DNA of 64,000 bases, taken from assembly GCF_026155325.1 (NCBI RefSeq), contig NZ_JAPFPW010000006.1, positions 1 through 64,000 on the forward strand. Direction: 5' to 3'. This document shows positions 6,850 through 46,490 of this stretch, in pieces; position 1 is the first letter of the stretch; each line of letters opens with the position of its first letter. The notes below the pieces were generated by a model. The model was not told the origin of the DNA, did not search any database, and saw only the letters and a list, made by a program, of their open reading frames with translations. Position numbers and translations under genes: made by a program. The stretch is from Desulfobotulus pelophilus. GTDB lineage: Bacteria; Desulfobacterota; Desulfobacteria; Desulfobacterales; ASO4-4.

Positions 6850-7674
6850 TTAGCCCTCCTTGCCGGAAGAACCCAGACAATAAACCCATACAACTTCAGG
6901 CAGCTCTGAGGGCTTTGTTTTGAGCAAAGGGTCATTATTGAGATTCAACCGCAGAAGAATGCCGTTTTCGGGCAGATCTGGGTATGGGACAGAGGCATCA
7001 TCCGGCAGGATTATTTCTGCACATGACGGAAAAAGTTTTATAAGTATTTCTGCCGCATCAGGAAAATCCGTTACCCAGAAAAAAGGAGGCTGATTACAAC
7101 TTTGAAAAAGCCGGAGCCATGCCCGCATCCGTTGCTCCGGCCTGCATGGTGAAGAAAAAAACCTGCTGGCATTTCCCGGCGTATCCCCCACACCTCCTGC
7201 GAGAGCTGCCATCATATGGCGATGCGCATCATCCACCTTCCGCATTTCCCGGGCAAGCTCCAATTCTGCCCTGTCAAAGGCTTCCGCCTGCATCAGAAAA
7301 AAAGCTGACAGGGCAAGAGAGTCTGTACCTTTGCGGAATTCCGGGGACTCAACTCTTACCTCGCCCCGCATTTCACGGCTAAGGGCCCATGGACTGGGCT
7401 CCGGTTCTTCTTTGGGAGAGAACAGGTCAAGCACGGCTTCCTTTCCGAGCTGAGCCGCCCTCTGTTCCAGATCTTTTTTCATCAGCACCATGAAGGAGGG
7501 GTCTATTTCTTTGATCCGTAAGGGTACCAACCATCCTTCCTGCACTGCGGCGGCAGCATCCGGCCCCATTTCCGAGCCACCGGTATGGAGAATGAACAGG
7601 CGGGGAAAAAGGGAACGAAGATATCCGATGGATGCAGCAGGCATATCCAGAAAAGGGAAGTAAAGCATATCCAT
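6850..7674 (-). CDS. Uncharacterised protein downstream of the cysteine synthase-CysRS fusion
   Basis: A 274-residue soluble-looking protein that I do not recognise. It starts MDMLYFPFLDMPAASIGYL, has a charged, probably helical middle (residues ~65-170, rich in E, R and K) and a hydrophobic C-terminal part with FFWVTDFPDAAEILIKLFP. There is no signal peptide or metal motif. The start at 7674 is chosen because AAGGAG lies 9 nt upstream; an earlier in-frame ATG at 7701 would place that SD inside the gene. It follows the fusion gene by 88 nt on the same strand and could be the last gene of the tmk-led unit. Confidence 0.6.
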   Translation of the reverse strand: MDMLYFPFLDMPAASIGYLRSLFPRLFILHTGGSEMGPDAAAAVQEGWLVPLRIKEIDPSFMVLMKKDLEQRAAQLGKEAVLDLFSPKEEPEPSPWALSREMRGEVRVESPEFRKGTDSLALSAFFLMQAEAFDRAELELAREMRKVDDAHRHMMAALAGGVGDTPGNASRFFSSPCRPEQRMRAWLRLFQSCNQPPFFWVTDFPDAAEILIKLFPSCAEIILPDDASVPYPDLPENGILLRLNLNNDPLLKTKPSELPEVVWVYCLGSSGKEG

Positions 7675-7762
7675 GATGCAAGGCTCCTTGTACCGTTTCA
7701 TGTAAGGGGAGACAAACCGACCCTACCTTGTCTGCAGGTATCCTTTTGGAAGGTTCATGTAG

Positions 7763-10039
7763 TCAGCTTTTTTTTCCATCCTGCATAATGATGCCCATAT
7801 GGGAAAGCTCTTCCCGCAAACGGTCCGACGCCTCCCAGTCTCCTCTGCTACGTGCTGCTTCCCTTTCCGCCAGCTTCAGGGCTATTTCCGGATTACTGCT
7901 GGGATCAGTAAATTCGAAAATTCCCAGAACACTGTCCATTTGCCGGAAAATTTCCAGAACTCTGGATGCACCCAGAGGCCCCACACCACCATCCGCAAGC
8001 AGTCGATTCAGGTTGCGGATCTGGTTGAAGATTCCCCCCATGGCTGCGGAAATATTGAGATCATCGTCCATGTCCCTGATAAAATTTGTCATCAGTTCCG
8101 TGGCAAGGGTTTCCAGCTCCCCGGTTTCATTTCCCGTTGTGATACAGGCCAGGCGGTGCAGGCAGCTGTCAATTCGCAAAAGGGATCTGCGCACGGCAAG
8201 CCGGACCTCCGCCGTAAGAAGAGCCGGCTTGCGGTAGTGGGCAGACAGAAGCCAGAAACGGACTTCTCTGTCCGTCATCCCGTCTTCATCCAGATCCTTC
8301 AGGGTCAACCGGTAATCCTGACCAACGGCTCGCCCGTTCACAAAAACCCTGTCACAGTGCATCCAGAACCGGGCCATGGGGGCTCCCGTAGCTGCTGTGG
8401 CAATGGCTATTTCATTTTCATGGTGAGGGAAAAGAAGGTCTCTGGAACTTGTATGAATATCAAATGTTTGTCCAAGGTATTTCATGGACATGGCCGCACA
8501 CTGCAGGTGCAGTGAGGGCCTCACATTACCCCATTCCGTACTGGCATAGATCCCCCGTTTCAGCTCAGAGAGGCGGATTCTCTTCAGCAGGGTGAAATCC
8601 CGGGGGTTGTCCTTTTCATATTCCTCCAGATCCACGGTGGCTCCCAGGCGAATTTTATCCAAATCCACACCGGAAAGGGACCCGTACTCTGGAAAAGCAG
8701 ATATGTTGAAGTAAATGGAGTGATGCTTTTCATAGGCGACACCGGAACTGACCAGCTTCCGCGTAAGAGAAACCATATCTTCAAGGTGTTCGCTGACTTT
8801 AGGATAATGCTTAGCCGGCAAAACCTTGAGCCTTGCCAGATCTTCATGAAAAATCCGGATCCACTGCTCCGTAAACTGGGCCAGAGGAAGGCCTGCCGCT
8901 TCGGATCCTGCAATGGTTTTGTCATCCATGTCCGTAATGTTCATCACGTGGGTTACATCAAGGCCCCGGAACTTCAGATATCGGCACAGAAGGTCACTGA
9001 AAACAGCTCTGCGGCAACCTCCGAGGTGCATGCGGTCATGAACGGTGGGGCCGCAGGAATAAATGGAGGCCTTACCTTCGTGCAGAGGGCGGAAATTTTC
9101 TTTAGTCCGTGAAAGTGTGTTGTGAAACTTCAGGCTTTCCGGAGTTTTGCTGGCAAACAGTTCTGTGGAGAGGTAGCGTTCTCCACTATCCGGAAAGATG
9201 ACCACCAGCGTGCCCGATTCCATGGAAGCGGCCATGTCATGGGCAACAGCCATGGCTGCACCGCTGCTCATTCCCACAAGAAGACCTTCTTCTCTGGCCA
9301 GCTTTCTGGCCATTTCAAAAGCCCGGCCATCCTGGATATTGATTTTTGCATCCAACCGCTGTTTTTCGTACAGTTCCGGCTGATATGCTTCCTTCATGTT
9401 TTTCAGACCCTGAATCCGGTGCCCGAGGTAAGGCTCCACTCCGATGATACGGATGTCACTGTTCAGGCACTTCAGGCCCCTGGATAGTCCCATAAGGGTA
9501 CCCGTGGTACCCATGGTGGCCACAACGGCCTGGACCTTTCCGCCGGTCTGCTCCCATATTTCCCGGCTCGTTCCGTCGGCATGGGCTCGCCAGTTGGCTT
9601 CGGTGTTGTACTGATCCGTCATAAAATACCGGTCAGGATGTTCCCGCACCAACCGGTAAACAGCCTCTATGGCCCCATCCGTTCCCAGATGGCCGGGAGT
9701 GAGGAGTATGTCGGCTCCCCTTGCCTTAAGAATGCGACGTCGTTCGAGGCTCACAGCTTCACTCATGGCCAGCATGAGCCTGTATCCTTTTACAGCACAG
9801 ACCATAGCGAGGCCAATGCCTGTATTGCCACTGGTCGCCTCTATAACGACCTTGTCTCTGGTCAGGATACCCGCTTCTTCGGCCATGCGGATCATGTAAA
9901 GAGCGGCCCGATCCTTTACGGAGCCGCCGGGATTCATGTATTCAAGTTTGGCAAGAATCCGTACGGAAGGATTGGGATTCATCCGACGAATTTCAACCAT
10001 AGGGGTATTGCCGATAAAGTCCAGAAGGGAATATGACAT
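7763..10039 (-). CDS. Cysteine synthase (CysK/CysM-type) fused to a degenerate cysteinyl-tRNA synthetase
   Basis: A 758-residue two-domain protein. Residues 1-300 form a complete fold-type II PLP cysteine synthase: Lys42 in GGSVKDR, TSGNTG at 69-74, the phosphate loop MGTTGT at 176-181 and SSGAA at 258-262. Residues ~305-758 form a full-length CysRS-like region. It keeps all four expected zinc ligands of the cysteine pocket (Cys329, Cys514, His539, Glu543). HIGH is changed to HLGG (338-341), and the KMSKS loop is absent, replaced around 570-580 by AVGQDYRLT. It is therefore unlikely to charge tRNA normally; cysteine sensing or another condensation is possible. A canonical cysS lies at 45023-46438. 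SD AGGA precedes the ATG. It sits 40 nt after the photolyase. Confidence 0.85.
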   Translation of the reverse strand: MSYSLLDFIGNTPMVEIRRMNPNPSVRILAKLEYMNPGGSVKDRAALYMIRMAEEAGILTRDKVVIEATSGNTGIGLAMVCAVKGYRLMLAMSEAVSLERRRILKARGADILLTPGHLGTDGAIEAVYRLVREHPDRYFMTDQYNTEANWRAHADGTSREIWEQTGGKVQAVVATMGTTGTLMGLSRGLKCLNSDIRIIGVEPYLGHRIQGLKNMKEAYQPELYEKQRLDAKINIQDGRAFEMARKLAREEGLLVGMSSGAAMAVAHDMAASMESGTLVVIFPDSGERYLSTELFASKTPESLKFHNTLSRTKENFRPLHEGKASIYSCGPTVHDRMHLGGCRRAVFSDLLCRYLKFRGLDVTHVMNITDMDDKTIAGSEAAGLPLAQFTEQWIRIFHEDLARLKVLPAKHYPKVSEHLEDMVSLTRKLVSSGVAYEKHHSIYFNISAFPEYGSLSGVDLDKIRLGATVDLEEYEKDNPRDFTLLKRIRLSELKRGIYASTEWGNVRPSLHLQCAAMSMKYLGQTFDIHTSSRDLLFPHHENEIAIATAATGAPMARFWMHCDRVFVNGRAVGQDYRLTLKDLDEDGMTDREVRFWLLSAHYRKPALLTAEVRLAVRRSLLRIDSCLHRLACITTGNETGELETLATELMTNFIRDMDDDLNISAAMGGIFNQIRNLNRLLADGGVGPLGASRVLEIFRQMDSVLGIFEFTDPSSNPEIALKLAEREAARSRGDWEASDRLREELSHMGIIMQDGKKS

Positions 10040-10079: not shown

Positions 10080-11477
10080 TCAGCAGGGCACTTTGTTACA
10101 GCCTGGCAGACTGTTCACATGATGGACATATTCGCGGATATGACTTTTCCGCTCAAGGCCGGAAGCAGCCATATAACGGACACTTCCAAAGACAGGTCTT
10201 TTGGGCCATGGTCTGTCGTGAAGACCGAAAATCCAGCCACAACCCGCATAAGAAGACGGATCCCTTCCATCGAGAAAGCCTGTGTTGGTAAGGTACAGAA
10301 GACGCTCAAAGGCTTCCTCCGGAGAAGCGGACCACTCCAGAATTTTTTTCCCCCAGTACATACGCATGACATTGTGCATATATCCCGTGCGCCTCATTTC
10401 TTCCATGGCGGCATTCCAGTAGCTGTCATGGGTGGCAGCAGATTGCAGGGTTTCCATGTCATACAAAAAGGGACGCCGGTCCTGCCTGTGCAGATCAAGG
10501 GTTTCCTGTGCCCAGGCAGGCAGGGAAGAATAGCTGTCATAATCTGGCGTGTGGTGCACAAAATTGACGGCCAGTTCCCTCCGTACCACAAGCTGTTCCA
10601 GGAAAGCCTTTTTGATCTCCTCATCCAGCTCGGAGTCCAGGATCCTGCGGACCACAACTGCCGGGCTGATCATGCCAAAATGAAGAAAGGGAGAAAGAAA
10701 TGACACCCCGTAGCGATGGGGAATACGCCGATCCATGACATATCTCTCCGCCCTCTCCTGCATAAAGTTGTCAAGGCAAAGAGCTGCCGCATCTTCTCCG
10801 CCTCCGTATCGCCAGACAACGGGCGTGGAAGAAGGAAAAATCTTTGCCTGACGCAGCAGTTTTTCCAGATCTTTCAGGCTTTCTCCGGCCGGGGTTTTCC
10901 CCGTGATGGGCGGAGGTGTGATCTGGGGGACTGGCGACAGGAAACAACCCGTTTTTTTCAGAATTTGCGGCCGGAGCACATAGGCTGCATAGGCTCTTTT
11001 ATGATAGGCCTCTGCCACGGGGACAACGACATCCCCTTCCACTGCCGTTACGGAACAGGGGGCATGGCTACCCGCAAATTCACGCCATGATCGCTGATGC
11101 CTCAGATACCCCACATCACAAATCATGGCAGCCGCATTGTTGTACAGATCGGGCAGTATGGATTCGGGGGTCCCGATACGAAGAACAAAGCCCATCCCCC
11201 TGTCCCGCAGTTTTACGGAAAGGCTCTGGAGTCCCTGCAGCATGAAAAAAAAGTGAAAGCTTCGTGCTTCCGGATAGTCTCCCATAAGGATAAAAGCCAC
11301 CAGCACCGGTTTTTTGAGAAAAAGAGCGGTTTCTACGGCAAAGGCCAGTGCATGATTGCCTTCAATCCTCTGGGACTGCTGCATCCAGTACAGAACATAA
11401 CGGCCTTCCGGGCGAAAGGGCTGGGAATTCATCCGTCTGAGTCTTTCCGGCGGTACGGCTGAAAAACTTCCTGTCAT
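10080..11477 (-). CDS. Class II CPD photolyase
   Basis: DNA photolyase that splits cyclobutane pyrimidine dimers using FADH- and blue light. The class II signature YWMQQSQRIEGNHAL lies near residues 30-44, and the C-terminal FAD-binding helical domain includes TGYMHNVMRMYWGKKILEW and FLDGRDPSSYAGCGWIFG. The 465-residue length is typical of class II. The start at 11477 is 1 nt after the stop of the upstream small gene and has no clear SD, so coupled translation is likely. A second in-frame ATG at 11432 (MNSQPFRPEGRYVLY) sits after GGAAAG and is a fair alternative. Confidence 0.92.
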   Translation of the reverse strand: MTGSFSAVPPERLRRMNSQPFRPEGRYVLYWMQQSQRIEGNHALAFAVETALFLKKPVLVAFILMGDYPEARSFHFFFMLQGLQSLSVKLRDRGMGFVLRIGTPESILPDLYNNAAAMICDVGYLRHQRSWREFAGSHAPCSVTAVEGDVVVPVAEAYHKRAYAAYVLRPQILKKTGCFLSPVPQITPPPITGKTPAGESLKDLEKLLRQAKIFPSSTPVVWRYGGGEDAAALCLDNFMQERAERYVMDRRIPHRYGVSFLSPFLHFGMISPAVVVRRILDSELDEEIKKAFLEQLVVRRELAVNFVHHTPDYDSYSSLPAWAQETLDLHRQDRRPFLYDMETLQSAATHDSYWNAAMEEMRRTGYMHNVMRMYWGKKILEWSASPEEAFERLLYLTNTGFLDGRDPSSYAGCGWIFGLHDRPWPKRPVFGSVRYMAASGLERKSHIREYVHHVNSLPGCNKVPC

Positions 11478-42995: not shown

Positions 42996-45026
42996 CTATA
43001 CATCCTGAATCCCCTTCAGCTCCCGGATTCTGTCCCGCAGTCTGGCAGCCCTTTCAAAGGCCAGCTCTTCGGAAGCTGCCTGCATTTCCGCCTCCATGCC
43101 TGCAATGACAGCGGCAAGGTCAGCCCCTTTTCTGCCTGCTTCAAAAGGAAGTTCTTTTTCCGCTACTGCGGCCATATCCGGATTATCTTCATCGGCCACA
43201 CCAAAAATCAGTAAGGATCCAATGGCCTTGGAAATGGTTTTCGGTGTAATGCCATTGGCTTCGTTGAAAGCCAGCTGGATGGCTCGGCGTCTTTGGGTTT
43301 CCTCAATGCATTTTTCCATGGAGCGAGTCCGGTGATCCGCATACATAATCACCTTGCCCAAGGCATTGCGGGCTGCTCTGCCGCAGGTCTGAATGAGAGA
43401 TCGGGCTGAACGCAGGAAGCCTTCCTTATCCGCATCCAGAATAGCCACCAGAGCCACTTCCGGTATATCCAGTCCTTCCCGAAGAAGGTTGATCCCCACC
43501 AGAACATCAAAACGATCCATTCGAAGATCTTGAATAATTTCAATTCTCTCAAGGGTAGAAATATCGGAGTGAAGATAGCGGACACGCAGGCCCATCTCCG
43601 TATAATAATCCGTCAGATCCTCGGACATACGCTTGGTCAGGGTCGTGACAAGGACCTTCGCTCCCCGTTGCAGGCAGTCCCGGATTTCATCATACAGATC
43701 ATCCACCTGATGGGCTGCGGGGCGAACCTCAATCAGGGGATCTACCAGTCCCGTTGGACGGACAATCTGTTCCACCACTCTTCCATCGGATTTTGCCATT
43801 TCATAGTCTGCGGGAGTGGCGGAAACATAAATTACCCGTTCAGCCTTCTGTTCAAACTCATGGAACTTCAAAGGCCGGTTATCCAGAGCCGATGGAAGCC
43901 GGAAACCGAAATTTACCAGGGTCTCCTTACGGGAACGATCTCCCTTATACATGCCTCCTACCTGAGGTACGGCTATGTGAGACTCATCAAAAAAAATCAG
44001 CATATCATCGGGAAAATAATCAAAAAGGGTAGGCGGCGGTTCACCCGCATTGCGCCCTGTCAGATGACGGGAATAATTTTCTATCCCATTGCAGTAGCCG
44101 ATTTCACAGAGCATTTCCAGGTCGTAGAGGGTTCTTTCTTCAATTCGCTGGGCTTCGATCAACTTGTTTTCATGGCGAAAAAATTCAATCCGATCCTTCA
44201 GCTCCCCTTCAATAGCCTTCATGGCTCGTTTGCGGGTGGTTTTTTCTGTCACATAATGGCTGCCTGGGAAAATGGCCGTCTTTTTCATCTTCCGAAGTAT
44301 TTCACCACGTAGGGGGTCAATTTCTGAAAGCCCTTCAATCTCGTCTCCGAAAAATTCCACTCTGACAGCCCGGTCTTCCTCATAGGCAGGAAAAATTTCC
44401 ACCCTGTCTCCCCTGACCCGGAAGGTACCCCTGTGGAAATCAAGATCACTGCGGGAATACTGCATGGCCGTCAGATCCCGGAGGAGGCGATCCCGGCCCT
44501 TTTCCTCACCAACACTCAGCTCAACCCGTAATGCCAGATAATCTTCCGGAGCACCGAGACCATAAATGCAGGAGACACTGGCTACTACAATGACATCCCT
44601 CCGGGTTAATACGGAACGGGTGGCAGAATGGCGCATTTTATCGATCATCTCATTGATGGCCGAGTCCTTGGCAATATAGGTATCGCTGGATGGAATATAG
44701 GCTTCCGGCTGGTAATAATCATAATAGCTGACAAAATATTCTACCGCATTGTGAGGAAAAAGCTGTCTGAACTCATTAAAGAGCTGCGCTGCTAGAGTTT
44801 TGTTGGGCGCAATGATCAGGGCGGGTCGACCGATACGGGCGATAACATGGGCCATGGTAAAGGTTTTGCCCGACCCGGTAACACCCAGTAAAACCTGGTG
44901 GGCGGCCTGTTCTTCTATCCCCTTCACCAAAACGTCAATGGCTGCAGGCTGATCTCCCTTGGGTTCAAAAGTAGAAACAAGCCGAAATTCACTGTCTCCG
45001 TAATCTGCTGCCTCTGCCTTTTTCAT
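42996..45026 (-). CDS. uvrB: Excinuclease ABC subunit B
   Basis: Helicase-like UvrB of 676 residues, which verifies damage and loads UvrC. Motifs seen: Walker [11 protein letters not shown] (~45-54), the beta-hairpin region [27 protein letters not shown], and the C-terminal UVR domain ([27 protein letters not shown]). The ATG at 45026 overlaps the cysS stop in an ATGA; a GTG 12 nt upstream is in frame but less likely. uvrC follows directly. Confidence 0.97.
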
Positions 45027-46438
45027 TCCAATCGCCACAAGGTCCCTTCCGGCTTATCCTCAAGAACCACGCCCATGTCCAACAGCTGCTGACGCACAGC
45101 ATCGGCCTTATGGAAGTCCTTATGCTTCCGCGCTTCTGTTCTTTCCCGAACCAGCGCATCTATCTCAGAGGCATCAAGGCCCGTGGAAGAAAGGGCATTT
45201 TTTTTCTTGGTCTCAAAATAAACAGATGCTTCTTCATTCCCCAGTCCGAAAACATCTGCCATGGAGTAGCAATCTGCTATCAGGGCAGCCGCCTGCCTGT
45301 TAGATTTCGGGCTGCCTTCATCCATCAGCCGGTTTGCGGAACGGATGGCATCGTACATCAGCCCCATGGCTTTTGCCGTATTAAAATCGTCATCCATGGC
45401 TGCGCAGAAAGACTGCCACAATTCTCCCCGGCCATCCGGTAGAGTCAGATTGGACGCATGGGCCCTCAGAAAAAGGGCATAGAGTTTATCGAGGTTTTGA
45501 GCCGCCTCATCCAGGTACTGGTCCGTAAAATCAATGGGACTTCGGTAATGACTGGATAGGAGAAAAAGCCGGACGCTTTCCGGATGCCAGGTTTCAATCA
45601 CATCCCTGACCCGAAGAAAGTTACCAAGGGATTTAGACATTTTTTCCTGATTGATATTCACAAAACCATTGTGTACCCAATAGCTTGCAAATGGCTGCCC
45701 CGTGGCTGCCTCGCTCTGGGCAATCTCGTTTTCATGATGGGGAAAAATAAGGTCCTTACCTCCGCCATGAATATCAAAAGAAGCACCCAGCAGAACGCAG
45801 CTCATGGCTGTACACTCAATGTGCCATCCCGGACGGCCCGGTCCCCAGGGGCTCTGCCAGAAGGGTTCATCCGGCTTGGCGGCCTTCCAGAGGGCAAAAT
45901 CGTGGGGATTTTTTTTACGGGTATCCACGGCAATACGGGAACCCGCTTCCATATCCTCCAGTTTTCGTCCGGATAGTTTTCCGTAGTCCGCAAAGGTTTC
46001 CACGGAAAAGTACACGTCACCGTCCACGGGATAGGCATGGCCTTTTTCGATCAGCAGAGTCACAACATCAATAATGTCCGACATATGTGCCGTGGCTCTG
46101 GGCTCAAGATCCGGTCTCAGGACATGAAGACGGTCCATGTCTTCATGGAAAGCCCGTATAAACGTTTCGGAAACGGTGGCGGAATCCGATCCCGTTTCAT
46201 TGGCTTTCTGAATAATCTTGTCGTCCACATCCGTAAAATTGCGGACATAGGTAACCTCATATCCTTTCACGCGGAAATACCGTACCACCACATCAAAAAA
46301 AATGACGGAACGGGCATGGCCGATATGGCTGTAGTCATAAACAGTCGGGCCACATACATAGAGACGCACCCTGCCCTTTTCCATGGGCGTGAAAATTTCT
46401 TTTTTCCGGTGCAGGGTATTGTATATGCGTAAGCTCAT
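45023..46438 (-). CDS. cysS: Cysteinyl-tRNA synthetase (canonical)
   Basis: Class I CysRS of 471 residues with all catalytic features: [18 protein letters not shown] (zinc Cys plus HIGH), [17 protein letters not shown] (zinc His/Glu) and [12 protein letters not shown]. This is the housekeeping enzyme, in contrast to the degenerate CysRS region of the fusion at 7763-10039. The start at 46438 (MSLRIYN) has GGAG upstream; the frame begins 11 codons earlier without support. It lies between ispF and uvrB, overlapping uvrB by 4 nt. Confidence 0.97.
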
Positions 46439-46468
46439 AAAAACTCTTTCTCCGGCGGATTTGGTAAT

Positions 46469-46490
46469 CAAAAGCCATCTTCAGCTTTTG
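46469..46490 (-). other. 7-bp-arm hairpin between ispF and cysS
   Basis: CAAAAGC and GCTTTTG (46469-46475 and 46484-46490, plus coordinates) form a stem with an 8-nt loop, 22 nt after the ispF stop and 30 nt before the cysS start. T residues are only inside the stem, so termination is weak at best. Confidence 0.3.

Follow-up and report, generated by a model that had tools for sequence, protein, structure and literature searches.

A cysteine synthase fused to a degenerate cysteinyl-tRNA synthetase-like module in Desulfobotulus pelophilus and its phylum: a candidate tRNA-Cys-binding pseudo-synthetase

Introduction

The nearest worked example of a regulatory pseudo-synthetase is HisZ. This paralogue of HisRS is inactive but binds histidine; it activates ATP phosphoribosyltransferase and passes on to it the inhibition by histidine (PMC10795190). 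For CysRS, a review of duplicated aminoacyl-tRNA synthetases names only MshC and CysRS*. MshC, the mycothiol ligase, is a CysRS paralogue lacking the anticodon domain and is recognized by a ligase model of its own. CysRS*, which belongs to the selC* system and also occurs as a second CysRS-like gene in Desulfobacterales, lacks the anticodon domain too and is active with the selC* tRNA. As for cysteine synthases, the known CysM and CysK enzymes stop at about residue 300.

The protein described here has a complete synthase domain in common with CysM and CysK, followed by a CysRS-like module. With CysRS (CysS) this module shares the fold, the zinc ligands and the residues contacting the anticodon; it differs in having neither HIGH nor KMSKS, in a changed GGG loop, in the absence of the GTxWR tail and in its position behind a synthase. 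Its core fold is similar to that of MshC, but it keeps the anticodon domain and fails the MshC model. It likewise differs from CysRS* in keeping this domain and in having lost the catalytic motifs. The likeness to HisZ is that a dead aminoacyl-tRNA synthetase paralogue is attached to an enzyme making the same amino acid, so that HisZ can be taken, by analogy, as a precedent. However, HisZ derives from HisRS and forms a subunit in its own right, whereas the fusion is one polypeptide, of CysRS origin, with its anticodon residues kept and with a regulatory role that is hypothetical. No description of a cysteine synthase-CysRS fusion was found in the open-access literature, although an earlier mention in subscription journals is possible; the phrase "cysteine synthase" is absent from a 2022 review of cysteine encoding.

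The fusion gene and its two halves

The window analysed is a stretch of 64,000 nucleotides of D. pelophilus (contig NZ_JAPFPW010000006.1, positions 1 to 64,000). Its minus-strand CDS 7766-10039 forms a single 758-aa open reading frame comprising a cysteine synthase and a full-length CysRS-like module. This agrees with the frame reported at 7763-10039 by an earlier note on this DNA, to which the strand is now added. The features of the locus are the following:

7766..10039, minus strand: complete fusion gene encoding 758 aa (stop at 7763-7765)
9152..10036, minus strand: cysteine synthase (PALP/CysM-like) domain, residues ~2-296 (Pfam, TIGR01136, structure match)
8225..9136, minus strand: CysRS-like catalytic core, residues ~302-605 (Pfam, structure match)
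9053..9055, minus strand: Cys329, zinc ligand, equivalent to E. coli C28 (alignment)
9017..9028, minus strand: degenerate HIGH, HLGG, residues 338-341 (alignment)
8498..8500, minus strand: Cys514, zinc ligand, equivalent to E. coli C209 (alignment)
8411..8425, minus strand: HHENE, residues 539-543, with zinc ligands His539 and Glu543 (alignment)
8315..8329, minus strand: site of the lost KMSKS loop, AVGQD, residues 571-575 (alignment)
7913..8086, minus strand: DALR helical domain, residues 652-709 (Pfam)
7769..7873, minus strand: anticodon-binding domain CysS_C, residues 723-757 (Pfam, alignment)
45023..46471, minus strand: separate canonical CysRS, HIGH and KMSKS intact (Pfam, TIGR model, alignment)

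Pfam recognizes PALP at residues 7-284 (7e-67), tRNA-synt_1e at 316-605 (2.5e-74), DALR_2 at 652-709 and the CysS_C anticodon-binding domain at 723-757. The synthase half exceeds the curated cut-off of TIGR01136 (346.3 bits vs 344.15). Its PLP-binding Lys42 and its TSGNTG (69-74) and GTTGT (177-181) motifs, present as the earlier note had read them, are largely invariant among 64 aligned members. By its sequence, this half is an intact predicted cysteine synthase. Besides the fusion, the D. pelophilus genome contains a further cysteine synthase-like gene that stands alone, as well as a serine acetyltransferase-like gene scoring below the cut-off of its family.

In the AlphaFold model, the mean pLDDT rises from 84 with 34 sequences in the alignment to 90 with 64, with a pTM of 0.61 both times. 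The first half of the model superposes on O-acetylserine sulfhydrylases (Z ~34) and the second half on E. coli tRNA-bound CysRS (1u0b, Z 47, residues 302-757). More generally, CysRS structures (1u0b, 1li5, 8qhp) match residues 301-757 with Z scores of 47-49, and MshC structures match the core fold with Z scores of 40-42. CysRS and cysteine synthase are matched separately, and none of the 50 entries listed in the structure search covers both domains. Because neither alignment gives a predicted arrangement of the domains relative to each other (pTM 0.61), no interface can be claimed and no route for allostery is visible in the model.

State of the CysRS-like module in D. pelophilus

Alignment to CysRS shows that HIGH has become HLGG and that the KMSKS stretch reads G-R-A-V-G-Q-D, in agreement with the HLGG and the missing KMSKS loop of the earlier note. 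The C-terminal GTxWR of canonical CysRS is absent, and the CysRS half scores 314.5 bits, below the curated TIGR00435 cut-off of 340. The four zinc ligands are all present, C329, C514, H539 and E543 aligning with E. coli C28, C209, H234 and E238, and to this extent the cysteine pocket is kept, as had been proposed; calling it kept is nevertheless slightly too strong, since Leu510 stands in place of the pocket Trp (E. coli W205) and TSS in place of the GGG loop (225-227). At the other end of the module, R726, R730, W735, D739, R742 and D754 align with E. coli R423, R427, W432, D436, R439 and D451; all four G34-reading residues (R726, R730, W735, D739) are therefore present.

With both HIGH and KMSKS broken, and with a canonical CysRS encoded as well, the fused module cannot be a normal CysRS. 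The canonical gene has intact HIGH and KMSKS and spans 45023-46471, where the earlier note gave 45023-46438. Two identities can be set aside at this stage, namely a second active CysRS, ruled out by the broken motifs, and CysRS*, rejected because the fused module has an anticodon-binding domain (residues 723-757).

The earlier note also suggested that the module could make a sulfur-carrying product, naming the cysteine persulfide formed by CysRS and the ATP-dependent condensations of paralogues such as MshC as known activities. The persulfide activity of E. coli CysRS needs four lysine positions (PMC5660078). Positions K73, K76, K266 and K269 are K, A, A and Q in the D. pelophilus module, and this reading loses support because three of the four are not lysine; a persulfide synthase was rejected on these grounds. 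An MshC-like ligase is unlikely because both ATP motifs, HIGH and KMSKS, are broken; moreover, the module scores far below the cut-off of the MshC model TIGR03447 (160.9 vs 485.1 bits).

Distribution and ancestry of the fusion

The search covered 40 relatives (the D. pelophilus genome counted), of which 34 have a full-length, stop-free fusion, with 53-87% identity. Broken or contig-edge pieces occur in two further relatives, which brings the total to about 36/40 across the order. Over the phylum, the fusion is present in 156 of 395 species sampled, counting only matches that a fusion alone can reach, with identity down to 44%. Named carriers include Desulforapulum, Desulfobacula, Desulfocapsa, Candidatus Desulfobulbus and Caldimicrobium. 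A frameshift or a sequencing error hiding KMSKS, for which the earlier note had allowed, is excluded because the same layout, free of stops, is seen in two congeners at 87% identity and in some 30 further families.

Outside the phylum fusions are rare (0/198, 3/247 and 0/249 genomes in the three other phyla sampled). Two of them (L199 and L200, 53-54% identity), from the phylum of an Acidobacteriota MAG in which 3/247 genomes carry a fusion, are perhaps the product of gene transfer.

Each of the 31 fusion genomes that were checked has a separate CysRS too. A tree built by a quick method and without an outgroup root, with 81 fused modules and 23 separate CysRS, groups the fused modules as one clade, on one side of a branch with an SH-aLRT of 99. 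In a member of the Patescibacteria (L085, CysRS open reading frame from ~6890), cysM and cysS are adjacent and unfused, about 20 bp apart. Such a fusion could arise from this gene order; the L085 CysRS is not near the fused modules in the tree.

One practical consequence concerns annotation. The database names "cysteine synthase" and "cysteine--tRNA ligase" are misleading for the fusion proteins, and CysRS counts in the phylum are inflated by about one per fusion-bearing genome.

Catalytic loss and selection across the family

As read from its motifs, the fused CysRS-like module is CATALYTICALLY broken in all members, to a varying degree. Homologues with HIGH and KMSKS both intact, which the earlier note had also considered, number 0 among the 81 full-length modules. 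The last His of HIGH is retained in 5/81 members. A KMSRS-like loop persists in some lineages (for instance L155, L156, L158, L159, L167 and L175) and is lost in the order of D. pelophilus. Most members have TSS or TSG in place of the GGG loop. All four zinc ligands are found in 51/81 modules, two in five modules and only one in 11/81. Because the motifs are broken by degrees in all 81 modules, the motif loss in D. pelophilus is the local state of a family-wide, probably old loss of aminoacylation. Catalytic loss of the fused module is thus well supported at the sequence level.

The nearest approach to an intact pair of motifs is that of L157 (G366), with HLGH and RTSKA; by motif, this is the least damaged fused module and a candidate for residual adenylation activity.

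The fused module is under strong purifying selection and is not decaying. Within the genus, dN/dS values, obtained by a pairwise counting method with synonymous sites partly saturated in the wider pairs, are lowest in the CysRS-like core (0.015-0.04), followed by the synthase (0.04-0.06) and by the DALR and anticodon part (0.08-0.09).

The anticodon-reading residues

In the E. coli CysRS-tRNA-Cys complex (1u0b), G34, the main identity base of tRNA-Cys, is contacted directly by R427, D436 and W432, and through water by R423 (PMC12684709, citing Hauenstein 2004). R423, D436, R439 and D451 (E. coli numbering) are found in 81/81 fused modules; the R427 position is R in 77/81 and K in 4/81, and position 432 is aromatic in 81/81. 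These residues are retained even where a lineage has lost HIGH, KMSKS and the zinc site. Of the columns that are invariant in CysRS, the 15 most degenerate members keep all five of the anticodon domain and four of the five of the stem-contact fold; of the six in the KMSKS loop they keep none, and the two Rossmann parts retain 4/21 and 6/22. For the anticodon domain versus the rest, the one-sided p is 0.008, in a test that is small (five anticodon columns) and partly post hoc, the degenerate set having been picked after zinc and motif loss were seen.

Such retention is informative because the domain is absent from MshC and CysRS*, two paralogues that no longer use the anticodon of normal tRNA-Cys; part of it could reflect needs of the fold. 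From this pattern we infer that the fused module binds tRNA-Cys. Moreover, since the anticodon residues are universal and the zinc ligands are complete in only 51/81 modules, the common denominator of the family would be tRNA-Cys recognition rather than cysteine binding. This reading, drawn from the best-kept residues and hence from the most informative pattern, is absent from the earlier note.

Association with dissimilatory sulfite reductase

Among the 395 species, dsrA is present in 190. The fusion occurs in 134 of these 190, but in only 22 of the 205 species that lack dsrA; in other words, 134/156 fusion genomes carry dsrA (Fisher p 3e-36, with species treated as independent despite shared ancestry). 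In the D. pelophilus genome, dsrA lies on another contig than the fusion.

Proposed role of the fused module

It can be proposed, with a probability that we put at roughly 0.5, that a pseudo-CysRS binding tRNA-Cys, and perhaps cysteine, controls or tethers the fused cysteine synthase in the manner of HisZ. The module would neither activate cysteine nor charge tRNA, the separate canonical CysRS being present for this. It would still bind tRNA-Cys through its anticodon-binding domain and, in many lineages including D. pelophilus, may also bind cysteine on its zinc. Occupancy of the module by uncharged tRNA-Cys, by cysteine or by Cys-tRNA would then set the activity or the place of the synthase. 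In this way the module would report the state of tRNA-Cys (and of cysteine, where the zinc site persists) to the synthase, and cysteine would be made at the pace at which translation needs it. What is hypothetical in this scheme is the control exerted on the synthase. The association of the fusion with dsrA counts in favour of the scheme, the missing GTxWR tail of the D. pelophilus module and the unpredicted placing of its domains count against it.

Such a device would suit cells in which internal sulfide is always high and cannot be used as a control signal. The pairing of serine acetyltransferase with CysK is usually sensitive to sulfide, and because sulfate reducers hold plenty of sulfide it would carry little information in them. 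By contrast, tRNA-Cys may be a good readout of cysteine demand in these organisms. The sequences suggest that cysteine production of many sulfate reducers could be steered by the protein-making machinery. A fuller version, in which tRNA-Cys, uncharged or charged, on a fused dead CysRS controls cysteine synthase in cis throughout the phylum and replaces sulfide-based control in dissimilatory sulfate reducers, is tentative, and we hold it to be somewhat improbable as a whole. If the proposal is true, sulfate reducers couple sulfur assimilation directly to translation through a tRNA-reading pseudo-enzyme. To our knowledge, this would be the first such control on a cysteine synthase; in bacteria, it would parallel the dead HisRS domains known from HisZ and from eukaryotic GCN2.

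Alternative explanations

The module may instead be a pure product sensor, free cysteine on its zinc inhibiting or activating the synthase as in HisZ, with tRNA uninvolved. Cysteine sensing that controls the synthase had already been suggested, and it is possible because the zinc ligands persist in most members, D. pelophilus included; in CysRS, the pocket bearing the zinc is where cysteine binds, and HisZ provides the precedent. However, the pocket is not kept across the family. The modules with one or two zinc ligands still keep the module and its anticodon residues, the pocket Trp is replaced in D. pelophilus, and an anticodon domain is needless for sensing cysteine, as MshC illustrates. 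We therefore regard this explanation as rather unlikely.

Clearly less probable is a delivery scaffold, in which the module would hold tRNA-Cys, and perhaps the canonical CysRS, beside the synthase for local loading without allostery. The sequence evidence for tRNA binding serves this model equally, and the transsulfursome of methanogens, a SepRS-SepCysS-SepCysE tRNA complex, offers a precedent. Yet the canonical CysRS and the fused module would compete for one anticodon, a complex of the module with tRNA-Cys or canonical CysRS is purely conjectural, and in the window 35 kb separate cysS from the fusion.

The eroding catalytic residues, together with a domain placing that looks flexible in the model, would fit a structural or stability domain that is only a relic of an ancestral bifunctional fusion. 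The low dN/dS of the core (0.015-0.04) and the precise conservation of base-contacting anticodon residues over the whole phylum make such a relic quite improbable.

Finally, residual ATP-dependent chemistry on cysteine (MshC-like ligation) or persulfide formation, for which MshC, the CysRS persulfide synthase and the KMSRS kept in some distant members could be invoked, is very improbable given the two broken motifs in D. pelophilus and in no member an intact pair, the TSS loop, the replacement of K76, K266 and K269 and the MshC score of 161 bits against 485.

Gene neighbourhood and other CysRS-like genes

The neighbours of the fusion comprise tmk and surE, two genes resembling a photolyase and an HD-domain exonuclease, and an uncharacterized downstream gene. 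A functional operon was considered and rejected, no sulfur or tRNA-Cys gene being seen among these neighbours, and for the same reason the gene context is uninformative on function. In most other families tmk is much nearer to the fusion than in D. pelophilus, where the photolyase-like gene (10083-11477, minus strand, weak FAD domain match) lies between the two in the same direction. Directly downstream of the fusion and on the same strand, 6853-7701 (minus strand) encodes a 283-aa protein without Pfam family; a homologue stands at the same place in 32/84 loci, two of them outside the order (L156, L158).

Two further CysRS-like genes were seen in other genomes. A 729-aa CysRS-like open reading frame (L193; G097, contig 27), whose last 260 residues resemble a GT2 glycosyltransferase, is possibly another CysRS fusion or the result of a lost stop. 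A third CysRS gene in another genome (L194; G406), with KMSKS present and no anticodon domain, is probably the CysRS* of the selC* system.
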